Shown piece by piece: positions 46,877 through 59,869 of a stretch of 64,000 nt of DNA; position 1 is the first letter of the stretch, and each line of letters starts with the position of its first letter. Source of the DNA: Scytalidium lignicola (lineage: Eukaryota > Ascomycota > Leotiomycetes); the NCBI GenBank assembly GCA_002812745.2, contig NCSJ02000053.1, forward strand, positions 1 to 64,000, read 5' to 3'. The notes below the pieces were generated by a model. The model ran no database searches. It saw only the letters and a list, made by a program, of their open reading frames with translations, and was not told the origin of the DNA. Both the position numbers and the translations under genes were made by a program.

Positions 46877-48650
46877 ATGGGTATGTCGTTTCTCCCCCCT
46901 CCCCAGGACTGCCCAATAGCCTTGGCTTGTCCGCTGCTCGGGTCCATTCACTGCCTCTCCATCCTCCATTCACTGCGGCGAGAGTTGAACCTCTTCTCCA
47001 TTTAACTCTTCTCCGCCATCGTTCTCAAGACTTCCCATACCCAAAGACTGCCAGGGAGCTCTTTTCTAACTTTTGTGTTCCAACCTAGCAGCTGATACTG
47101 GTGATACCTATCGCCCTGTAAGTTCAATGCGCGCGTGAAGCGTTTCTTTCTATCTCTCCTTCTACCTTGATATATATATCTACATCTCTATATNAAAAAA
47201 AGGAAACACAAACCAGAAACCCGGCTACCCAGAAGCTGGGCGTAGGCATCTTTAGGACTAGCCGTTCTGTCCAGCCTTACGGGCCGTGCACCTACCCTCC
47301 TCTATCTTAGTCCCTGGCGTTGCCACCGGCTGGGAAAAGAGAACCATAGTGAGAATCTCACGTCCCGAGGCGTAAGGGAACGCTGAAAGGGCGCCTCTGC
47401 CAGGCCTCTGGATTTCTCTCCAACGAAAACCCAGCCGCAACTTCGCTTCATCAGCCGATCTCTGGTGTTCCCCCTTTGCCCCATCCCCCACACAGCTCTC
47501 TCAGAGATATTCCCACTTCCCCTTCCGTTCCTTACTTCCTTCCAATTCCTCAAGCATCAAGCCTTCTTGATGGTTGGAACAGATACTTACATTCCGCAGC
47601 GCGAGAGATCTCGCTCTCCTCGTCGTCGTTCTCGCAGCCCAGGTCGCTCGACTCGTCGCCGTTCATACTCTCCCCGTAGCCGCTCTCGCAGCCGGGACGA
47701 TCATCGTAGAAACGATCGCAGATCTCGTTCTCCAATGTCAGGCGCAGGTGCCGGTGGAGGAGCCTCGGGCGGCTCGGGCTATGGTGGTGCTGCTCCTCCA
47801 AGGTCCTACGAGGAGCGTGCTGCTGCCAGAGAGCAGATGATGTCCAACATTCGAGAGTCCTCCCAACAGGACCGACGTGTTTATGTCGGCAACTTGTCCT
47901 ATGATGTGAAGTGGCATCATCTCAAGGACTTCATGAGATCCGGTTAGTCTGTACAGGAGCTTGGCAGNTTTTTTTGTTTTGTTTGTTTCTGCTCCAAAAA
48001 AATGGTTGGAATGGCTTAGCTAACTCGGAGTGTGTGACGTGAATTGTAGCCGGAGAAGTCGTGTTCGCTGATGTGTTGTTGCTTCCCAATGGAATGTCGA
48101 AGGTGGGCGCCTATACGTAGCTGGCTTTTTCGAGTTTTTCTTTTTCTTTTCTAGACTTTGAGGGAATGTTGGATTGACGGATTGGGACGTTGTTCCGTGG
48201 GTTATGTAGGGATGCGGGTGAGTACTACCTACCTTTACCGTTCGCGATACACCAAATATAAGTATTAACGTTTTATTTTAGCATTGTAGAATATGCTACG
48301 AGGGAACAAGCTCAACAGGCAATCACCACTCTCAGTAACCAGAATTTGATGGGAAGATTAGTTTATGTCCGAGAAGTAAGGCCCCGACTTCCTCTGGTCT
48401 TCAATACACAATCTAACTTATCCCGTTTTACTTATGACAGGACCGAGAGGCTGAGCCTCGTTTTACCGGCCCATCTACAGGTGGCCGAGGTGGTTATGAT
48501 GGAGCAATGGGAGGCCGCGGCGGCTTTGGCGGCGGCGGTGGATACGGAGGTCCCATGGGTGGGTTGAGCACTCCTAAAACCCACCCATGGGGCTCCAGTG
48601 GGTGGGTTTCCTATTTGGGAAAAACCCCATGGGTGGAGGTGGATACCTAG
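46877..48650 (+). pseudogene. SR-rich RRM RNA-binding protein (Gbp2/Hrb1-like), truncated by a transposon
   Basis: Seven exons fit with exact phase: 46877-46880, 47092-47117, 47600-47942, 48050-48102, 48210-48217, 48282-48375 and 48441-48650, giving 245 aa as it stands. The N-terminus MADTGDTYRP leads into an Arg/Ser domain (RERSRSPRRRSRSPGRSTRR), then one complete RRM with RNP2 RVYVGNLSYDV and RNP1-like [14 protein letters not shown] Gly-rich linker [21 protein letters not shown] follows. Fungal shuttling mRNA-export/SR-like proteins of this type have further RRMs after such a linker, but here the frame runs into the inverted repeat of the AT-rich element and ends at 48,650 with about 30 transposon-derived residues. 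Exon 5 is only 8 nt (GGATGCGG). The missing 3' half is not found up to 64,000. Confidence 0.82.
48552..48591. repeat. Hairpin at the left boundary of the element
   Basis: CCCATGGGTGGGTT (48552-48565) is perfectly complementary to AACCCACCCATGGG (48578-48591) with a 12-base loop. The left arm lies in what reads as RRM coding sequence (GPMGG) and the right arm in the transposon end. Either the element begins at 48,552 or the insertion site itself was complementary to the terminus. Confidence 0.8.
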
Positions 48651-48934
48651 TGGGCACCCATTAAACCTAGTCATGTGGAGTATAATGTACAAAATGCATA
48701 ATATATGTATAAATCCTATTATGTAGTATATGATAATCTTAAATGATTTGAGATTGTAAGTATTATTATAAAAATTACTATAATTACAATAATAGTTTAT
48801 TAGTTTCATTATAGTCAAGATTATTATAGTTTTAATTTAATGTCAATTTTGTTAATAACAAGAATGCTTGTTAATTGTCCTTGGATTTTCAAATAACTCT
48901 TAAATCTTCTATTAATTATTATTGAAGTAATAAT

Positions 48935-49469
48935 CTATTTGTTGTTGCCTGGGTATTCAAATCCTGTCATGTGATTGTGAATTGCCTTGATAAACTGCAT
49001 ATCCTTTACTTGAATAGTAACTTGTTTTACATGAATTGTAACTAGATTAACTATTATAATATTATCATTAGTATAAAGATTATTATAGTATTTATTTGAA
49101 TTATACTTACTTTTAAATTCTCCAACTAGGATAATTTCAGTATATTCTTGTAAAGCTTCTAAAGCTAGCTTTTGAATTTTCAGACTACCCTTGCTTATAT
49201 CTACTAGAATCTTACAAACTACACATATAAATAGAGTTTTTAGAATTAGAAGTTCATAAGACNTTTTGATATTTTTTGATTTCATATAATGTAACAACTA
49301 TTATATATTAGTATATTTATATTAATTATTATAGTAATCACTTACTTCTTAGCTTGTATTGTCTTTTAGTTTTCTTAACAACTATCTTTTAAGCAACTTT
49401 TGGTTTCAAGTTCATTTTTAGAGCTTTTCCATTAACAGTCTTTTATATTGTTTGTTTAGTTCTAACCAT
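48935..49469 (-). pseudogene. Histone H3-like gene inside the transposon, two premature stops
   Basis: Exons 49469-49346, 49297-49111 and 49050-48935. Introns of 48 and 60 nt have GTAAGT donors, TACTAAT branch-like motifs and TAG acceptors. Ignoring the N at 49,263 as an extra base, the total is 426 nt = 142 codons (H3 is 136 aa). The tail reads MVRTKQTI-stop-KTVNGKA and KPKVA-stop-K, matching the H3 tail with K4, K9, K14, K23 and K27 kept; the stops (TAA) sit precisely at R8 and R26. After intron 1, IVTLYEIKKYQKSYELLI matches the H3 alpha-N helix. Then come LALEALQEYTEIILVGEF (alpha-2) and, across intron 2, INLVTIHVKQVTIQVKDMQ (loop 2). Loop 1 (DISKGSLKIQ) is one residue longer than in canonical H3, and the C-terminus carries a novel tail (HMTGFEYPGNNK). 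Probably dead in this copy through RIP. Confidence 0.9.
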
Positions 49470-49946
49470 TCTAAATTATAATTAGTATAATAATTATTAT
49501 AATATATGATTATACATACTTAGAATATGATCAATAAGCTATTTAGAAGTAGTAATAATATTGTTAGTAGAATAATTGTAAAGTTGTTGATAGTTGTAAA
49601 GTTAGTAGTTGTAAAATTATAGTAGAATAACAACAAAAATAAAAAGTGAAAAAAGTTAACTTAGATTAATTATTATAAAAATCGAAAATTTAATGATATA
49701 TTACAAAGAAAATTTAATGTTATATTATTATTAGTATAAAGATATAGATTAACTAATTATATTTCTTTATTTGATTTTTCACCTTTCAAAACCTTTACAA
49801 TTACTTTTGTTTTTACAATATAATTATTATAACACAATTATAATTATAACTATTTTATAGTTATTAATATCATCAAGATTTATATGTTATATTATCAAAT
49901 ATATTATAATAATCTATATACTAACTTATTAAATATAATATTCATC

Positions 49947-51480
49947 ATGGTTGGAAAATGCAAAGTTAAGGAGGAGTTATCCAAAAATCCTCATACAATT
50001 AAAGTACATACTTGTATAACAGGACTTCAAGGTGTTGAAAAAAAAAAATCGAAATAACAAGGTGAACAAATACAAGTACAATAACCTATACTCTTAAAAA
50101 AATGCAAAGTTCAACAGAATATATTAATGGAAATAATAATGCAAGAGAATATCTTAAACAATTTACAACTGAGAAAACAATTCACAAGAAGTAAAATATA
50201 CATTGATTATAATAATCTTTATACTAATTGATTTTCAGAAAGGTTAATAGTAAACATTAGACTATTCTAGCATGAAATTTCGGCTATAGCGAAGAAGGTA
50301 GTTAGTATGCACAACTTAATGACAATAATCTTGTGTAAGAAGATATATTATAAGAAGAGATTAATACATTTGAGATAGAAACAATATAATATAAAGATAA
50401 TCTTCAAAATGGAGAAAGATTTGTTAATCTTCTTGAAAGAAGTAATATAAAAGAGTATGGCTATGCTATAGTAGTTAAAACATATTACATAAGTTAGATT
50501 ACTATAAAGATTATTATGGAGATAGTTGAACACAAATACAATATTAATACTACTTCATAGTATATATATGAAATTGAATTCTTTACTTAGCAAAAAAATT
50601 GGAAATGCGTTTATGCTTTACTTTCTAAGAAGTTAACAAAGCTTCAAAAAGGAGGTTAAGCATATTTGAAATTTAAAGGATTATACATTAACAAATTAAT
50701 TAAGTAAATATTATAATAATTATTATAATAATCTATTAACTTTTTATAATTAATATTATAATATTATTCCTTTACATATTTTCTTTACAACTAAAGAATA
50801 AGTGATTTGGAGTAATTAAACAATATAAGCTTTTCCTGAAAATCTTAAGTAGGTTGAACTTCTTAGTCTTGTCAAATAATATAATATATACAAGGATAAT
50901 GAAGATCTATTTGTTGTTTTATCAGAAGATAATGAACATATAAAAGCAGTTTTAATATTAAGCAAAATTAAGGAGTTACTTCATTACAAGCTTATCTTTC
51001 TAAGTCATGATAAGCTTTATATCATGAAAGATTCTCTAGAAGTAATGTTTATTACTTGGTCATTTGAAATGACATTAGTTTAATACTTAGAAATTTTATA
51101 ATACTAAACCATTTTATTGATTTTCATATATATATATATAAATTATACTAATCTTTATACTAATTCTTATGTAAATTATTCNTTTTTAAATATTTTTATT
51201 AATATTATTATTTANTTTTTGTACAAATCCTTTTTTTTTGTTTGTTAAACTTTGATTAATTATGTTTTCTTCNTATTAATTTTCTATAAGACTAATTATC
51301 TAATCATAATGATAAAATTAATGATTAACTGCTTTCTTCATCTTCTGATAATTATTTTATTATTAAAATGAATTTTATACAAATTAACAAAGATTATGAA
51401 TATTATTATTAATCTTTAGATATTCATAACAAATTCTTATTATAGTAGACTTTTACATCTTAGTATAAATTTAATCAAAC
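49947..51480 (+). pseudogene. Degenerate coding remnant in the transposon, N-terminal region or second gene
   Basis: An ATG at 49,947 opens KCKVKEELSKNPHTIKV and a stop-interrupted frame. A well-formed intron follows near 50,190-50,239 (GTAAAA...TACTAAT...TTTTCAG). Further right, fragments such as KNWKCVYALLSKKLTKLQKG and EDNEHIKAVLILSKIKELL look like mutated coding sequence. It could be the 5' part of the transposase gene or a separate element gene with a zinc-binding DNA-recognition domain; many stops prevent a decision. Confidence 0.4.
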
Positions 51481-51579
51481 AAAAGGTAATAAAAGTGCAA
51501 TAATCTAATGGAATACATCAAATCACTTATCTATAACATAAGCATATTTCGATCAAGGTACTTTAATAAACAGTAGAAC

Positions 51580-54129
51580 TCTAGTTATGATATGTTATGT
51601 ATGCTTAATAACTCTTACTCATCCAAATATCAAGAATACTAAAATAAAAGCTTTAACAACTTATATACAATCATGAAAATGTCAAAGAGTTATTAGACAT
51701 AAAAGTATAACTGCATTTTAACAATCTATAATAGTTGAAACATTATCAACATTAATATATATATTATTATAATAATAATTAATTTTAATAGTTAAATAAC
51801 AAAACCTTAATTCTTACAAATAAAACATTCATTGAATATCTTCTTTAAGTTATAATTGATTTACATCTTCCTTTTCAAGTAATCAAATATAAATCATTTC
51901 GCAATTTTCAACATCTTCTTAACCTTCTTTATTTGATATTATCTGTGAAAACCCTTTGAACATATATTATAGACTATATAACTTTAATTGAAAAATTATT
52001 ATTACAAGATATTATTCTTAGTTTAAATATTTCAATAGCTCTTGATTGTTAGTCTAGTCTAAACTGTACAGCATTTATAAGAGTAATTATATATTAGATT
52101 GATAAATATTAAGAGTTTTATAAAGTATTGATTAGATTTGAGCATTTACAAAGTGTTCATTCTGGTTTTCAACTTGTTCAAGTTCTTTTTAATGTTCTTT
52201 CACAACATCAAATAAAACATAGTATTTATACTATTACTTTAAACAATACAAGTAATAATAATACACTTAGCAAAAAGATAAATGAACTTGCATTAGTATT
52301 ATCAAATAATACTAATTACAATTCTAATTCTTAGTTGTTTTCAAATCAGATAATTCGAATATTATGCTTATTATATATTATCCAATTATCTCTTTATAAT
52401 TTGCTTAGAGGAATTTGTATTAATCTAACAAACAATGAATTAGCTAAGAATTAACATGGTAATGACTTTCAAGAATTTAAAAGAATNAAAAAAGGCAAAG
52501 TATAATAATAGTATTCCATGGACACTTACAAAGGTTAATTATATATATTATAATAATTTTTATACTAATCTAATACATAAATTTGAAAACTTCCATTATA
52601 TGTCAATTCAAGTCCTCAAAAACAAGAAGAGTTTTGACAGATTCAAGAATTTTAACCGTATAACTTTATTAATTTGAAGAAGACTTTAAATTTAATTTAA
52701 GACATTAAAACACATTAGAATTCAACATGTGAAATGCTTATTCAAGCATGAACATTACAATTAACAATTAATAAGTATATTATTAGTAATATTATAAAGA
52801 TATTTCAACTGTTCAAAGTTAAATAAAAACAAGTTGAATACTTGATTAATCTTATTAAACCATTTTGTTTTTTTATAAATTTTATAAGATGTACTAAAGG
52901 ATTAACTGTTGATTATATTTATAAAGTATACAATTCTCTTTTTAATCATCTTAAGAACTCTTTAACTTGACTTAAAATAAAAAAGGCTAAGAATGATCAA
53001 GAATAAATTGAACTTCTTATTAATAATCTTTCTAAAGCTTTNAAAAAAGCTTTAGAAATATTATCAATAAACATATACAGATTTGGGCAATGTATATGTT
53101 ATAAGAATAATTCTTATACTAGTTTATAAACTAGTTCCATTTCAAGAAGAAGCTAGTTTTCCTAGTAATATAAATTGAGAAGCAGAATACTCTTAATAGT
53201 TTTATCATGTATATAATTTGAAATATACAAATATAAAATATACTTTATTGATTTCTTAACAATAACAACAATTTCATTAACAAGATGATTTATTTATAAT
53301 ATTACAATTGAATAAACTGAAGAATATATTATAATCAGAAGAGATTAAAGATGAATATCCAGAAAGTAAACAATATCTTAGTTAATATAAGTTTTATATT
53401 AATTTTTATAGTAATTCTTATTAACAATTTTTAGTAATAATTCAACAAAATGCACTTGATTACTAAAAAGGTCAAGAAGAAAAATAGCTTAAATTAATAG
53501 TAATAGCATAAGATATTCTTTTTATTCTTGCTTTTAATGTTGGAGTTAAATGTATTTTTAATAAAGTTTAAGAAATATGTTATTTTCATAGATTATGTTT
53601 GTAACTAAACATAATTAAAGTATTAATGATAATATATTATTATAATAAGACTTTAATGAATAAAGAAACTCTTTTAGAAGTTGTTTATAATATTTTAACA
53701 ATAGATGATTATTTATTAAAAGTTATTCAAGTTGAAGAAGATGAACAAGCTGAAGAAATTAAAGATGTTATGAAAATTGATTATATAAGTGATGAAGATA
53801 AAGAAATAAATTTTACATCACTTATTATTCTTTGTTCACTTTGTCGAAAACGAGATTATTCAAGTAAATCATAATAAACTCTTGGTTATACACCAACTCT
53901 GATTTGAAAACAAAGAAATCAAATTCTTTTACAATAAAATAATGATTTTGATGATCAAGATTCTAATGTTTATAATTAATATTCTTCTCCAATTAATCAA
54001 AATACAAGAAAACATCAATGATTACCAGAATATGAAGATACATTTGGTGAAGAAGATATTAATGAAGAAATATTAAAATTTTCATCAAGTAGAATTAGTT
54101 TAAAAAGGCAACTTTTTTCTAGTTTATAA
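51580..54129 (+). pseudogene. hAT-family transposase relic
   Basis: Recognisable pieces occur in order. A BED-like Cys/His finger lies near 51,590-51,680 (ICYVCLITLTHPN...). The RNase-H-like catalytic region at 52,128-52,334 has FEHLQSVHSGFQLVQVL and YTITLNNTSNNNTLSKKIN, where hAT transposases have T(D)NASNN; the Asp is now Asn, as G-to-A damage would produce. The C-terminal hAT dimerisation block at about 53,440-53,650 has ALDY-stop-KGQEEK, FNVGVKCIFNK and CYFHRLCL, then IIKVLMIIYYYN. One frame runs from 53,440 to the terminal TAA at 54,127 with many in-frame stops at former Gln/Trp/Arg codons. An acidic tail (VEEDEQAEEIKDVMKIDYISD) follows the dimerisation block. The gene is not functional. 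Confidence 0.82.
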
Positions 54130-54591
54130 TATTTGTATATATATTTTTTAATTAATATACTTTCATGAAATCAATTTGCACTTTTACATTAAATTTTAAT
54201 ATTATAAATTACATTTTTATCTGAAAAATAAAATTATAATCATTATTATAATAATCTATTTATAAATTATACATTATAATATAGAATCTTAACATATTAC
54301 TTTATTCTTTCACAATATTTTATGCAATATAATGCAAATCACGTGAATGGGTTTAATAAGGTGCTGGTGGGTACCCACCTCCTACCCAGCCCTGGGTTTT
54401 CTTGGGTTTGGGGTTTTTTTAAAAGTCAAAACCCACCTACTGGGTCCTCATAGGGTGGGTACCCAGTGGGTTTTAGGGCCCCATTCCTCACTCTATTCCT
54501 GCTCTATCTCTTTTCTCCCCCTCCAACACGATCCGTCTAGCAGCAGCTTCTCATCGCACCTCTTTACACTACCTACACTACTACCATTAGC

Positions 54592-57098
54592 ATGCCACGA
54601 CATCAGAAGATTTTGGACAATCTGGATGATTCAGATACTTCGTCTTCGTCAGGGGATGATGCAGTATTCAATATCGACAAGCCTGAAAGTGACTTGGAGA
54701 GCGAAGCTACGAGTGTCAAAGACCTTGATGTTGACAACGACCATGACCTTGAGATTAACCTTGAAGACCAGATTCAACTCTTTAGCAAGAATATTCACCT
54801 CCCAGAATATTACTAACAAGCAGTAAATGAGTTTAACATGAGGGTTTTCAACTCTGAGGATTATTGTCCAAGGACAAACTTACTCTTGGATGTAGTAAAA
54901 GAATAGTAATGTTTATAAGAAGCTTGTAATTGCTTTCTTTATTTGCTTGGTAATAATATTTACTCATAAATACTATGATATCATTTAATATAATCCTTAA
55001 GAATATTTTAAATTACTCTTAATCTCTTAAGAAAGTTTAAAGTTACTCTTTATCCTAGAAGAAGAACATTTCAAGTCTTTGATCAGCCTTCTTTATCATT
55101 TCTTCGACTAAAGGCTAAATCAAAGACATAATAAAGATGGCAAGAAGTTATGCAAGACCAAAAAGAAAAGTTCATTGAGTATACTCTAAAAGGTCTTTTA
55201 GCTTGTTTATAAGAGAGTTACAAGCAATAAGTTGAATCTTAAACTGAATTATAACATATATAAGATATCTCTTTATTCTAACTCCTCAACAAGAATCCTA
55301 TTAACCTTTGACTTCTTTAAGTTCTTAAAGTACTAATAAAAAAGCACAAGCTAAGCAATTAGAGAAGAGTTAATCATTATATAATAATTAACAATCTTGA
55401 ACAGTAAATCAAGACAATACTAAGTATAACAAAGAAGTTATTCAAGCTTAAAGAGTTATATATCCTTGTTATACTCTTCCTCCTCTTACTCACCCTTGCT
55501 AATACTTGCTCAACATTAATATTATGATTATGATTTGAAGATATCCTGATTATATTAGTATAAGATTCAAAGGGAAGATTATATAACATTTTAATTAAGT
55601 TTACACTTGTATTCATTAAAACATACCTTGGCAAGAAGGATATATAAGTTTACTTAATATTAATGACAGATGTTGAATGCTAATACTTTCTTAGGAAAAC
55701 TTATCCTCTTCTTAAGATGTTATTTGTTAAGTCTTTACTCTTAAGCTTATATATCTTCCTCTTAAGCATCTTGTTCTGATATAAAGTATTTTATGTATAT
55801 AACCTTATTTCCTTATATTAATTAAAGACATTTGATATTCACCCTAGTAAGCTTGAGATGTAACTGTTATTAAAGAAAGATTTAAAAGACATTTATGTAT
55901 TTTGCTAAGTTGTCTAAATACTTATAAGCTTTGATATATCTGACAACGAACTTATATCCTATACGATGATAACAACATAGATTAAAAGGATTAATAAGAT
56001 ACTAAAGGTTAAAGATTTTAACTATCCTCTATAATCTACGTTATAACATTGTCAATGAGTAGACTTCAAATAGTCTATGTCTTCCTCTTTAATCATGATG
56101 CTAAGCTAACCTGGACTAATATAATCAACATGAGTAAAGCTCTTTATAACCTTATAATAAACTATACTAACTTGATATTACTCTAAAGGCATTACCTTAA
56201 ATATAACATAGATAAAGATCTCTTCAATATTCTTAAGGGAATAAAACTACAGTATACACTTGTGAAACAATCTTATAATGTCAGTTACTCTATTAGTAAG
56301 CATAAGCCTATTAACTTAACACCTAAGTAGTCTGTATCTGTTAACACTAATCCAGTGATTTAACGTCTAACCTTAAAGCTTCGGAAATTATACAAAGAAT
56401 CCAAAGAATACAAAGCAATTCACTGAACGCGAAAAAATGAAAAGCAACGATTACAAAAGGAGCTCAAACAGCAGATCAAAGACAATTAAACAGCTGAGCA
56501 AGCGGTGGACGATATTAAGCGCCAACTCAACAGCCTTAGGTTTGTCAAGCCTGCGCTAGACATGTCCTGCCATCCTCAGCGGCCAGCACAGAAGCGATTG
56601 ATAGAAGTACTTACGGCCCTAGCCACCACCGACCTCGAAGGGCAATACCGGCGGAGGGACGAGGGTATTGATGCCATTACTTTGTACTGCATGGTAGAGG
56701 AAGGACACACTGTACCTCTGAAGTCCTCAGAATCAACAGAACAATCGTTTGTCTCTTCTAGCCTAAACCCATCACTCAAGAGCCTATTATATACTGTTGT
56801 AATGCCCCTTTTTGTTAAGAATGAGGAGGAAAGACCACAGAGATACTTTGTCTACGTCGGAAAAGCAATGTCTTTAACGTCAGATGATCCCCGTATTGAA
56901 GAGCTTATTCACGAGTTCTTTAGTCCAGGAGATTTGACAAAACACTTCAAGCGAAAGCATTTATCCAAGTATAAAGAAGGTCCAATTGAGTGCAAAATGT
57001 GTCGAATGACTCTTGAGCGTAAGACGTTTTTCCAGAATCATGCGGAAAGCATTCACGGAACAGTCTCGCGACACAGCCATGCTTTTCGTAGCTTATAA
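54592..57098 (+). pseudogene. DUF3435 ('FluG-type') tyrosine recombinase relic, Starship-captain family
   Basis: The intact 5' portion (54,592-54,816) encodes an acidic N-terminus ending INLEDQIQLFSKNIHLPEYY. It continues past stops as NEFN...FNSEDYCPRTNLLLDVVKE, the standard family opening. The middle (54,880-56,400) is AT-rich and full of stops but still shows WIKRI-like and LRKLYKESKEYK-like remnants. The 3' part (from about 56,410, open from 56,505 to 57,098) has ELKQQIKDN-stop-TAEQAVDDIKRQL, CHPQRPAQKRLIEVLTAL and LEGQYRRRDEGIDAITLYCMVEEGH. Near the end is a C2H2-like finger (DLTKHFKRKHLSKYKEG...CKMCRMTLERK...FQNHAESIHGTVS). These are hallmarks of DUF3435 proteins. Active members are YR recombinases that mobilise giant Starship elements and sit just inside the element's left edge, pointing inward. 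A different frame stays open from 57,097 to 57,195 (LIKEDGFLVSEGFISSTVED), suggesting a small indel near the end. Confidence 0.85.
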
Positions 57099-57199: not shown

Positions 57200-59869
57200 G
57201 CGGGCGATCATTTCGCATTTGTTATTTTGTAAAAGCATATTTTTAAGTATTAGCTATAGGATAAGTATATTCTTAATCAATGAGGCTCTTCAAAGTTCTT
57301 GACATAGTATTAGTAAATTGTCGTTAACAATAATGCCACCGTTTACTACACAGTTACACGTTCTGGCTAACTCGCGATATATGCATTGGTAAAACGACAA
57401 TCCACCGAATGCACCTATGCTAAAAGATTAAATTGTCACCATCCCCCAATCTCCCCATCCTGCTTCACGACGGCTACTACAACTCTGCGACACATAGCTC
57501 GTATCAAATCACTATGATAAATGAGCGTTAGGTACCTGTCACGTGGATTGTCTGGGTTCTTGAATTGCAAGTCCCGAGAGACTTGGTTAGGAAATCAGTG
57601 TGGAAAATTCAATATTTTAAGATCAGGATTAGAAGTTAAATCACCAAACAATCTAATTCTTCTTACAGGTGTCATCCTTGTCCTACAAGTTTTCTACATA
57701 CTCTTCCCAAATTCAGTCATCTAAGATGTTTGTATTCAATCATAGTTTGCAACACTAGTCAGTACCTATAACTTAAAAGTTGAGTAAAAGCAATAAAAGA
57801 TTTGTACAATAGGGATTAGACGGTGGATAGGCATCCCTTGAAATTACACTCAGCATTTGTGAAGAGTAACATAGTATTGTGGATAATGGTGTTAATATAT
57901 TTGTTTTATCATTTATTCTAAGAGCACTTCTTAAACTAACAGAGGTAGGCTTGAGCTTCTATGTTATAATCTATAAGCAATTCTAGATATAAGCACTTTG
58001 TCAAAGTCTCTAAGAGAGTTACTCTCTGGTCAGATCCTATGCTTAACCTAATCTAAGTCTTTACTTGAACTGTTATTATATTGTACACTGGATCCACAGC
58101 TTGACATGTGTGAATATCTGTTTTGTAAAGTAAATGAATAATAGTTAAAGAACTTAATGTTCTTTGAACAATACATATCTTGATCTAATATTCTACAAGT
58201 TTATAATTGAATTCAGTTGAAATTGTTATTCATACAGATTATACCTCTAGTTATCAACAGTATTTAATAATTATAAAATACTCGTTTAAGTCAGAAAACA
58301 CTGTTAAAGGCATTATAAACCAGTTAATTGTCTTAATTTCTAGATTCTTTTACTATATATTTTAAATCTTATCAAAGATAACTTAGTATTTTCTGTAATT
58401 AAAAACTTTTTATAATTTTGTCTGTAAAATAAATTAGTCAAACTTGTAATTGTCAAAGTCAAGCCTTAGTTCACTTAATAATATACCTTTATTAGTACTT
58501 ACATTAACCTTGTCTCCTTCTAATTCTTTACTTAAATCTAATATCTCTTTATTAGAACTTATATTAACTTTGTCCTCTTTTGATTCTTTACTCAAATCTG
58601 ATAGCTCTTCATTAATACTTATATTAACCTTGTCTTCTTCTGATTTTTTGTTTAAATCATTTTCTTGTATATACAAAGAGTAAACATCTGCTAAGCATAG
58701 TATTTCTCGAAGCTTTGAGAATATTTTATGTTACTCTATTGTAATAACCTAGATTTTGTCCCTTTACATCAAATGTTATAAATCCTTGAAGAATATTTCC
58801 TTAAAGTGTATTATCTTTAATTACTAAAAGGGATAAGCTTTTGTTATTAACATAAAAAAGAGATATAATCAAGCTTAAAGCAGTATAAGAATAGTTAGTT
58901 ATAAGTTATAATATACAAGGTCTTGAAGTCTTGTACTGTTAATCCAGAACCTTCAATTAAGCTTAAGGTACTCTAGGTAAGGTAAGGTATATAATAAACT
59001 TATACATAAGTCTTTTGCTAATTCTAATTTTACTCTAAAGCTTAATTACCTTATGTTAAACTTTTGTAAAAGAGGGTAATTACAAACAATATCAAGGGGT
59101 ACTTTTACATTATCAAGCTTATNAAAAAACGATATTAATAACTTGTAAATGTCAGCATTTCATAATCTTTTCAATAAAGTTCTGACTAATAATAGAAATC
59201 TTAAGTATAAACTTTTGTAAAGTAAGGATTTAAAGCTTCTTAAATTTTAAGAATTGTTTTAACTAATGTTAATTTATAACCTTAAGGTGTAATATCTTCA
59301 GCCTTAACTATAAGACTCTTTATTCTTTACTTGTTAACATTATAAATGCTGATTTTAAGAGAGAAGTATAACAAAGGATAATCAATGTTAATACTTTAAG
59401 ATTTTCTTATTGTTGAAAGCATAATAGAAACTTTACAATATTAGATTAGGTTAGGTTATAACTTCTGTTTAATTCTTCAAGGTAGAAAAACTATAAATTA
59501 TAACTTTTAAACAATTAACAAAGTTTATTAATATTTCAGTTGCTTTTTAATCTGTAAATAATAAAAGCTTTAAAGTTTAAAAACTTATCTTATCAAGGTT
59601 AAATACAATTTTTAAGAAGGAGAAAACCATGAAGTAGATAAGACTTATATTAAGGCTAACTAGTTTTTAAGAATAATTAAAGCTAACTATCAAAAGCTTA
59701 ATATAACAATCATTAATAACTAAAAACTCAACTGTTCAAAGGAGAAGGAGGTTAAAAATAAGTAATTAATCTTAATTTTTAATCTTAAAAGGGATTGTGA
59801 GGCTTGAAAAACACTCTCCTTGTAATTATAAAAGGAGCTTAGCAGATTAATGATAACATATTATATAAT
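57200..59869. other. AT-rich, RIP-like region without intact gene
   Basis: Sequence is AT-rich with frequent TAA/TTA and few long frames. It holds the 60-bp tandem repeat listed separately and an N beside an A-run (59,123). Probably degraded mobile-element DNA; I could not assign a family. Confidence 0.5.
58480..58660 (-). repeat. 60-bp tandem repeat, about three units, open on the minus strand
   Basis: Units 58,501-58,560, 58,561-58,620 and a partial 58,621-58,660 align base for base at a 60-bp period, with a partial unit before 58,501. On the minus strand they encode a 20-residue unit of the form LSKESKEDKVNISSNKEILD inside an open frame at 58,676-58,434. It is notable that the frame stays open in otherwise stop-rich DNA. 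Confidence 0.8.

Follow-up and report, generated by a model that had tools for sequence, protein, structure and literature searches.

Can a histone gene be a standing part of a DNA transposon? The question is raised by a 64,000-nucleotide stretch of Scytalidium lignicola DNA (the window; part of contig C488 in a 46.85-Mb genome of 664 contigs), for which a first-pass annotation had described a histone H3-like gene of three exons and 142 codons, divergent from a hAT transposase and lying between inverted repeats.

The H3-like gene and the element around it

The H3-like gene (H3L) occupies positions 48935..49469 of the minus strand and, with splice sites placed by our own reading, has three exons and a total of 142 codons, of which codons 9 and 27 are in-frame stops. 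Its translation begins with MVRTKQTI, a stop, KTVNGKALKMNLKPKVA, a second stop and KIVVKKTKRQYKLRIVTLYEIKKYQ, and ends in EYPGNNK before the terminal stop. Exon 1 (49346..49469, minus strand) encodes the tail and carries both internal stops, exon 2 (49111..49297, minus) reaches from alpha-N to alpha-2, and exon 3 (48935..49053, minus) covers loop 2, alpha-3 and a C-terminal extension (...HMTGFEYPGNNK). An N at position 49263 in exon 2 shifts the frame if it is counted; nine other copies covering the site have no base there, C377 has one extra A in the neighbouring run, and C618 stops short of it. The Pfam Histone model matched the decayed 120-aa frame of the window at 8.2e-5 (23.3 bits, just under the cut-off of 26.4) and the best-kept copy, C642, at 1e-20 (first, 141-aa splice version); in the same version C642 aligned with H3.2 from the PDB at 5.6e-31 across residues 1-129. 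Judged from the C642 copy, H3L has the H3 histone fold at full length. When an H3-like protein of Xylogone was searched against the whole genome, the window was matched at 2.0e-10 (48938-49054) and 1.3e-6 (49109-49276), which rules out a chance resemblance to H3. The annotated H3-like gene, with its three exons and its orientation divergent from the transposase, is confirmed.

The surrounding element, a member of a family designated A, extends over 48552..54495 (plus strand) and has a GC content of 0.22 (22% vs 52% in the left flank); it is bordered on the left by a GC-normal gene and on the right by DNA bearing a DUF3435 gene. The right terminal inverted repeat (54478..54495, minus strand) reads TAGAGTGAGGAATGGGGC on the minus strand, whereas the left repeat lacks its outer ~18 bases and an RRM-like gene runs directly into the element at CCCATGGGTGGG (~48552), a junction that may be an assembly cross-join or a genuine deletion. 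Because of this incomplete repeat the extent of the element was drawn from other copies.

The element ends in short terminal inverted repeats, TAGAGTGCGGAATGGGGC on the left and TAGAGTGAGGAATGGGGC on the right, which are of the hAT type. Five of the seven right ends examined (C81, C137, C139, C321, C488, C512 and C663) are bordered by the same 8 bp as a left end elsewhere in the assembly, in each case on another contig (GGGCGAAA, ATGAAGGC, CTAATAAC, TTAGTAAT and GTAGGGTT), giving the 8-bp target duplication of hAT elements. The right ends of C488 (the window) and C663 had no partner among the left-end flanks, and the two ends of C81 do not match each other. Since the flank partners are on different contigs, copies, C81 among them, must have been split or cross-joined in the assembly. 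The transposase core (51807..52109, plus strand; four stops in the window copy) matched the C137 copy at E 1.6e-36 and a transposase piece of a second family (B, see below) at E 2.2e-6. The window copy alone, read through in six frames, gave no hAT match in Pfam, only a sub-threshold match to Peptidase_M50, and the C-terminal dimerisation region (53440..53637, plus) was therefore placed through the C137 copy, which is 89% identical in DNA to window positions 51761-54495 and matched PF05699 with 38.2 and 34.6 bits in two scans (cut-off 21.4); the region aligns with C137:49953-50150. Between H3L and the transposase core, the region 49833..51080 (plus) contains open-frame pieces in several copies and gave no Pfam match; it is a possible counterpart of the 'central ORF' of a Pyrenophora element (see below).

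Copies in the genome and a second hAT family

DNA of H3L was found at 12 places at least: the window, eight near full-length copies (85-91% identity) and three partial ones. At eight of these (C81, C170, C296, C350, C377, C482, C618 and C642) the exact left repeat TAGAGTGCGGAATGGGGC lies 0.34-0.38 kb outside H3L; of the remaining four, the left end is damaged in C399 and in the window, and C87 and C126 are partial. H3L thus lies inside the repeats at eight of 12 places, and wherever both were located it was never outside them. The H3-like gene as a standing cargo of the hAT element is supported by these observations. Exact left repeats with no match to H3L were present on C128 and C360, the latter contig ending at the repeat. 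The C128 sequence (L050:5210-5515) comprises a left end plus 0.3 kb of element DNA, is 96% identical to the window, and is perhaps a short non-autonomous derivative.

Transitions account for 3417 of the 3494 pairwise differences between 11 aligned copies, and 175 of 187 variable transition columns concern a C followed by A or T, on either strand, so both CpA and CpT are affected. The copies appear to have diverged in the pattern left by RIP. The best-kept H3L, C642, has one stop and has lost the transposase part, and all H3L copies read in family A or B are damaged; to judge from these sequences, the copies were not spared RIP-like mutation over the long run.

C46, C151 and C379 represent another repeat family with an H3-like gene (family B), whose H3L DNA was found at ten or more places besides the free gene C4 (see below). 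C46 has ends of the TAGACTGGCC type on both sides, with 8-bp flanks that do not match. The family-B transposase is hAT-like (PF05699 at 0.0022 in a read-through frame, below the cut-off) and collinear with that of family A. In searches with one core piece, families A and B matched each other next after their own members, at 23-30% identity, other hATs following at E 0.08-0.19. In both families H3L and the transposase are divergent: ~2.3 kb apart on six of the nine family-A contigs with a transposase piece (5.3 kb on C81, which contains an insertion), and 2.7-2.9 kb apart on four of ten such contigs of family B, the other six being without H3L. Among contigs lacking a paired H3L, the two inspected were C137, which is truncated, and C309, which has a related transposase piece without stops; on C309 the 2 kb at the expected position of H3L gave no H3L match and are GC-normal with long open frames. 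Between H3L and the transposase, family B has a frame with a long acidic D/E run (L056:6342-6560), and this region matched no Pfam family; acidic tracts of this kind occur in histone chaperones.

Relatives, introns and selection

H3L is 53% identical to the canonical H3 of the host and 58-60% identical to the Xylogone protein over its length. Relatives were also found in Bisporella, Pseudogymnoascus (two), Tricladium, Monilinia, Stromatinia and two species of the Botrytis type (Botryotinia/Botrytis), hence in at least seven genera of Leotiomycetes; this list is a lower bound, drawn from the best 120 of 6974 and the best 120 of 7993 matches, most of which were ordinary H3. The placement in Leotiomycetes was looked up for five of the genera, and the remaining ones presumably belong there too. 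Like the H3L of the element, most of these proteins have IPK at 62-64, RIQ, EFE and a C-terminal extension; deviations at 62-64 are IKK in Tricladium, VPR/LPR in Pseudogymnoascus and MPK in Botrytis aclada, and one Pseudogymnoascus protein has LQ in place of RIQ. An extension of the type HMTGxxxPGNN is common to the element, Xylogone and a JGI-sourced relative. P0032, a protein of 119 residues encoded on a JGI-sourced contig no longer than 4.6 kb, reads through a stretch closely resembling the second intron of the element; a scan of viral contigs for the JGI-sourced H3L gave 22 pattern matches, none of which was confirmed. A Leotiomycete-limited H3 variant may exist in Botrytis; no publication on it was found in searches of the open-licence literature.

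A tree built from 25 rows and 91 columns has a split with 99/94 support, with family-A H3L, C465 and the Leotiomycete proteins on one side and canonical H3, C4, family B and a CenH3 candidate on the other. All 14 H3Ls fell on one side of another branch, opposite canonical H3 and the CenH3 candidate; its support of 94/83 is not strong. Family-B H3L paired with C4 (100/99), family-A H3L grouped with the Xylogone and other Leotiomycete H3Ls, and the A and B H3Ls were not sisters; C465 was on a long branch, and host H3 paired with Lambiella (98/87). This ascomycete-type host H3, the introns and the RIP-like damage all indicate a filamentous ascomycete. Canonical H3 is a near-invariant sequence, and H3L, with its 53% identity and its separation in the tree, does not belong to it. 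Nor is it CenH3/CENP-A: it has KIQ instead of RWQ, which we take to be a mark of CenH3, and in the tree it does not group with C444, the putative CenH3 of this genome, the middle part of which is unresolved.

C465 (L059:3770-4290) and C4 (L060:4060-4660; one stop in the tail) are GC-normal H3-like genes outside recognised elements, and are either host H3 variants or old remnants of elements. By our splice reading, families A and B, C4 and C465 have two intron places in common, one behind KPG (in C465, KLG) and one behind the E of FE/LE, and the introns of the host H3 gene are at other places. The idea that the frame is a chance likeness, or a pseudogene recently derived from host H3, could appeal to the window, where the frame alone is broken and stays below the Pfam cut-off; it is refuted by the dozen or more places, the differing introns, the position in the tree, the relatives and the genome-wide match, and its probability is negligible.

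Selection was assessed by counting transversions, to which RIP is blind. Between C4 and family-B H3L these numbered 10, 7 and 25 at codon positions 1, 2 and 3 (p 4e-4 vs equal thirds), and the excess at position 3 suggests that at least one of the lineages was under purifying selection. Exon 3 alone had no such excess (2, 3, 2), and between families A and B the counts were 27, 15 and 27. The counts suggest that H3L was a working gene somewhere in the history of C4 and family B, in a transposon or outside, and selection could have been confined to the lineage of the free gene C4. Aligned over 103 bases, the two introns of C4 and C46 show only five transversions and are more alike than the exons; this unexplained likeness makes the introns an odd yardstick for the count.

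Possible roles of H3L and published cases

Histone cargo had been thought undescribed for hAT elements, a view that two reports do not bear out. In Pyrenophora tritici-repentis, Manning et al. (2013, PMC3538342) described an element of ~5.6 kb in tens of copies that, as here, has terminal inverted repeats, a hAT transposase with a dimerisation domain and an H3-like gene, by description neither H3 nor CenH3; it also has a central ORF, and the origin of its H3-like gene was considered unclear. Its copies are nearly identical and ESTs exist, whereas the present copies are RIP-damaged, their H3L has introns, and two hAT lineages are involved. Dhillon et al. (2019, PMC6710886) reported H3-carrying hATs with RIP-killed copies in Pseudocercospora fijiensis and five other Mycosphaerellaceae and interpreted both the Pyrenophora and the Mycosphaerellaceae cases as capture of a host H3 transcript. 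These elements resemble ours in their hAT nature, terminal repeats of ~20 bp, 8-bp target duplications, RIP-damaged H3-like copies and AT-rich blocks. They differ in that they are ~9.5 kb long, occur in hundreds of copies and carry an intronless copy of host H3, and in that DUF659 but not the dimerisation domain was found in them; the present element is ~6 kb long and has a distinct, intron-bearing H3 variant at 12 or more (A) and ten or more (B) places. The published arrangement, an H3-like gene inside the terminal repeats of a multicopy hAT, is thus also present here, and what is new is the separate H3L family with its introns and Leotiomycete relatives and its occurrence in two hAT lineages with one layout. 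A search of the open-licence literature, which omits most subscription papers, found no publication on H3L in hATs of Leotiomycetes.

What is established is a multicopy hAT element with terminal repeats, 8-bp duplications and the hAT domain, an H3L gene distinct from host H3, and a related second family of like layout. The explanation that we prefer, with a confidence that falls somewhat short of even, is that the window holds a decayed copy of a hAT transposon whose gene set included H3L, and that H3L would form altered nucleosomes aiding the element. In the living element H3L would be produced together with the transposase and, with the fold and several contact residues retained, could pair with H4: K56, R72, H113, R116, T118 and D123 are kept and R63, F84 and L103 are changed to P, I and E, all of them positions at which H3 contacts H4 and DNA. 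It would then enter nucleosomes that lack some features of the usual H3 surface: Q takes the place of R8, the 28-40 part of the tail is four residues shorter and R63 is P; C642 retains lysines 4, 9, 14, 23 and 27 beside the Q at position 8, and in relatives of H3L the ARTKQTARKS start is altered or absent. Nucleosomes of this kind would be less tight and would serve tail-directed silencing less well as substrates, which might allow the element to be transcribed and to transpose before it is overtaken by RIP and heterochromatin. A chromatin function is plausible, and in its simplest active form H3L may be a variant that forms nucleosomes but is looser, or less legible to silencing enzymes. An AlphaFold model of the Xylogone protein (pLDDT 60.7) was too weak for use. 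Support for the altered-nucleosome explanation comes from the number of H3L places, the common layout of families A and B and the mutual matches of their transposases, the common introns, the Leotiomycete relatives, the position-3 excess of transversions between C4 and family B, and the H3-type genes in hATs of two more lineages (Manning et al.; Dhillon et al.). The damaged copies, the six family-B contigs and C309 without H3L, the separate positions of the A and B genes, the lack of a position-3 excess in exon 3, the counts between A and B, and selection that could have acted on the C4 lineage alone count against it, and our confidence was slightly lowered by the intron likeness of C4 and C46.

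A passive passenger is almost as likely as a chromatin function. A hAT may have acquired the gene of a histone variant and multiplied it without benefit to itself, an explanation to which we give a serious, though less than even, chance; it is the published one for P. fijiensis, and it agrees with the damage in every copy read and with the family-B transposase contigs without H3L. Passive copying fits less well with the retained exon borders and introns, with the like place and orientation of H3L in two families whose transposase pieces are 23-30% identical, and with the repeated uptake of one gene class by hATs. Counting the two published cases, H3-type genes are now known in hATs from at least three fungal settings, the present one with two hAT lineages, which makes the idea of a chance passenger less comfortable. 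As the A and B genes are not sisters, two captures from the host are possible, that of B from a C4-like gene and that of A from a Leotiomycete H3L. The pairing of B with C4 and of A with Xylogone and its kin, and the free-standing C4 and C465 in GC-normal DNA, speak for such a history; but all four share the intron places, the 14 H3Ls fall on one side of a (not strong) branch, and C4 and C465 may be old remnants of elements. Two captures, while compatible with the other explanations, seem rather unlikely.

It is quite improbable that H3L was part of the transposition machinery and would tether the transposase to nucleosomes or target chromatin with silencing unaltered, even though H3L often adjoins the transposase and the HMTGxxxPGNN-type extension is kept in the element, Xylogone and the JGI-sourced relative. 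A broader version of the altered-nucleosome explanation, in which a fungal hAT lineage keeps its own selected H3 variant whose nucleosomes resist silencing, and free Leotiomycete variants were exchanged with it or domesticated, is in our estimate unlikely; if true, a selected H3L would have been retained long enough for transposase core pieces to diverge to ~23-30% identity. Whether transposons make their own chromatin becomes a testable question with intact Leotiomycete copies.

Some further features were observed in and around the element. A 21-base motif, TATAATAATCTTTATACTAAT, occurs 11 times in 48552-54495 (up to three mismatches, both strands; mean 0.04 and maximum 1 in 100 Markov resamples), with copies in an H3L intron, just ahead of the H3L start and in apparent transposase introns. 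Its 3' end is a branch-point-like sequence, so the introns may be copies of each other (introner-like), an idea at odds with two of them, at 50518 and 51771, whose strand is opposite to that of the transposase. The RRM-like gene interrupted at the start of the element lies at 47571-48567 (PF00076 at 0.0019 with one exon piece, below the cut-off); a pattern search for an uninterrupted version matched the window only, and the 3' part was not located. To the right of the element, 56433-56681 is a piece of a damaged DUF3435 gene (PF11917, 1.6e-9), a domain that occurs in Starship captain and Crypton-like recombinases, and at 58479-58658 a 60-base unit is repeated three times head-to-tail, the units being 80-83% alike.
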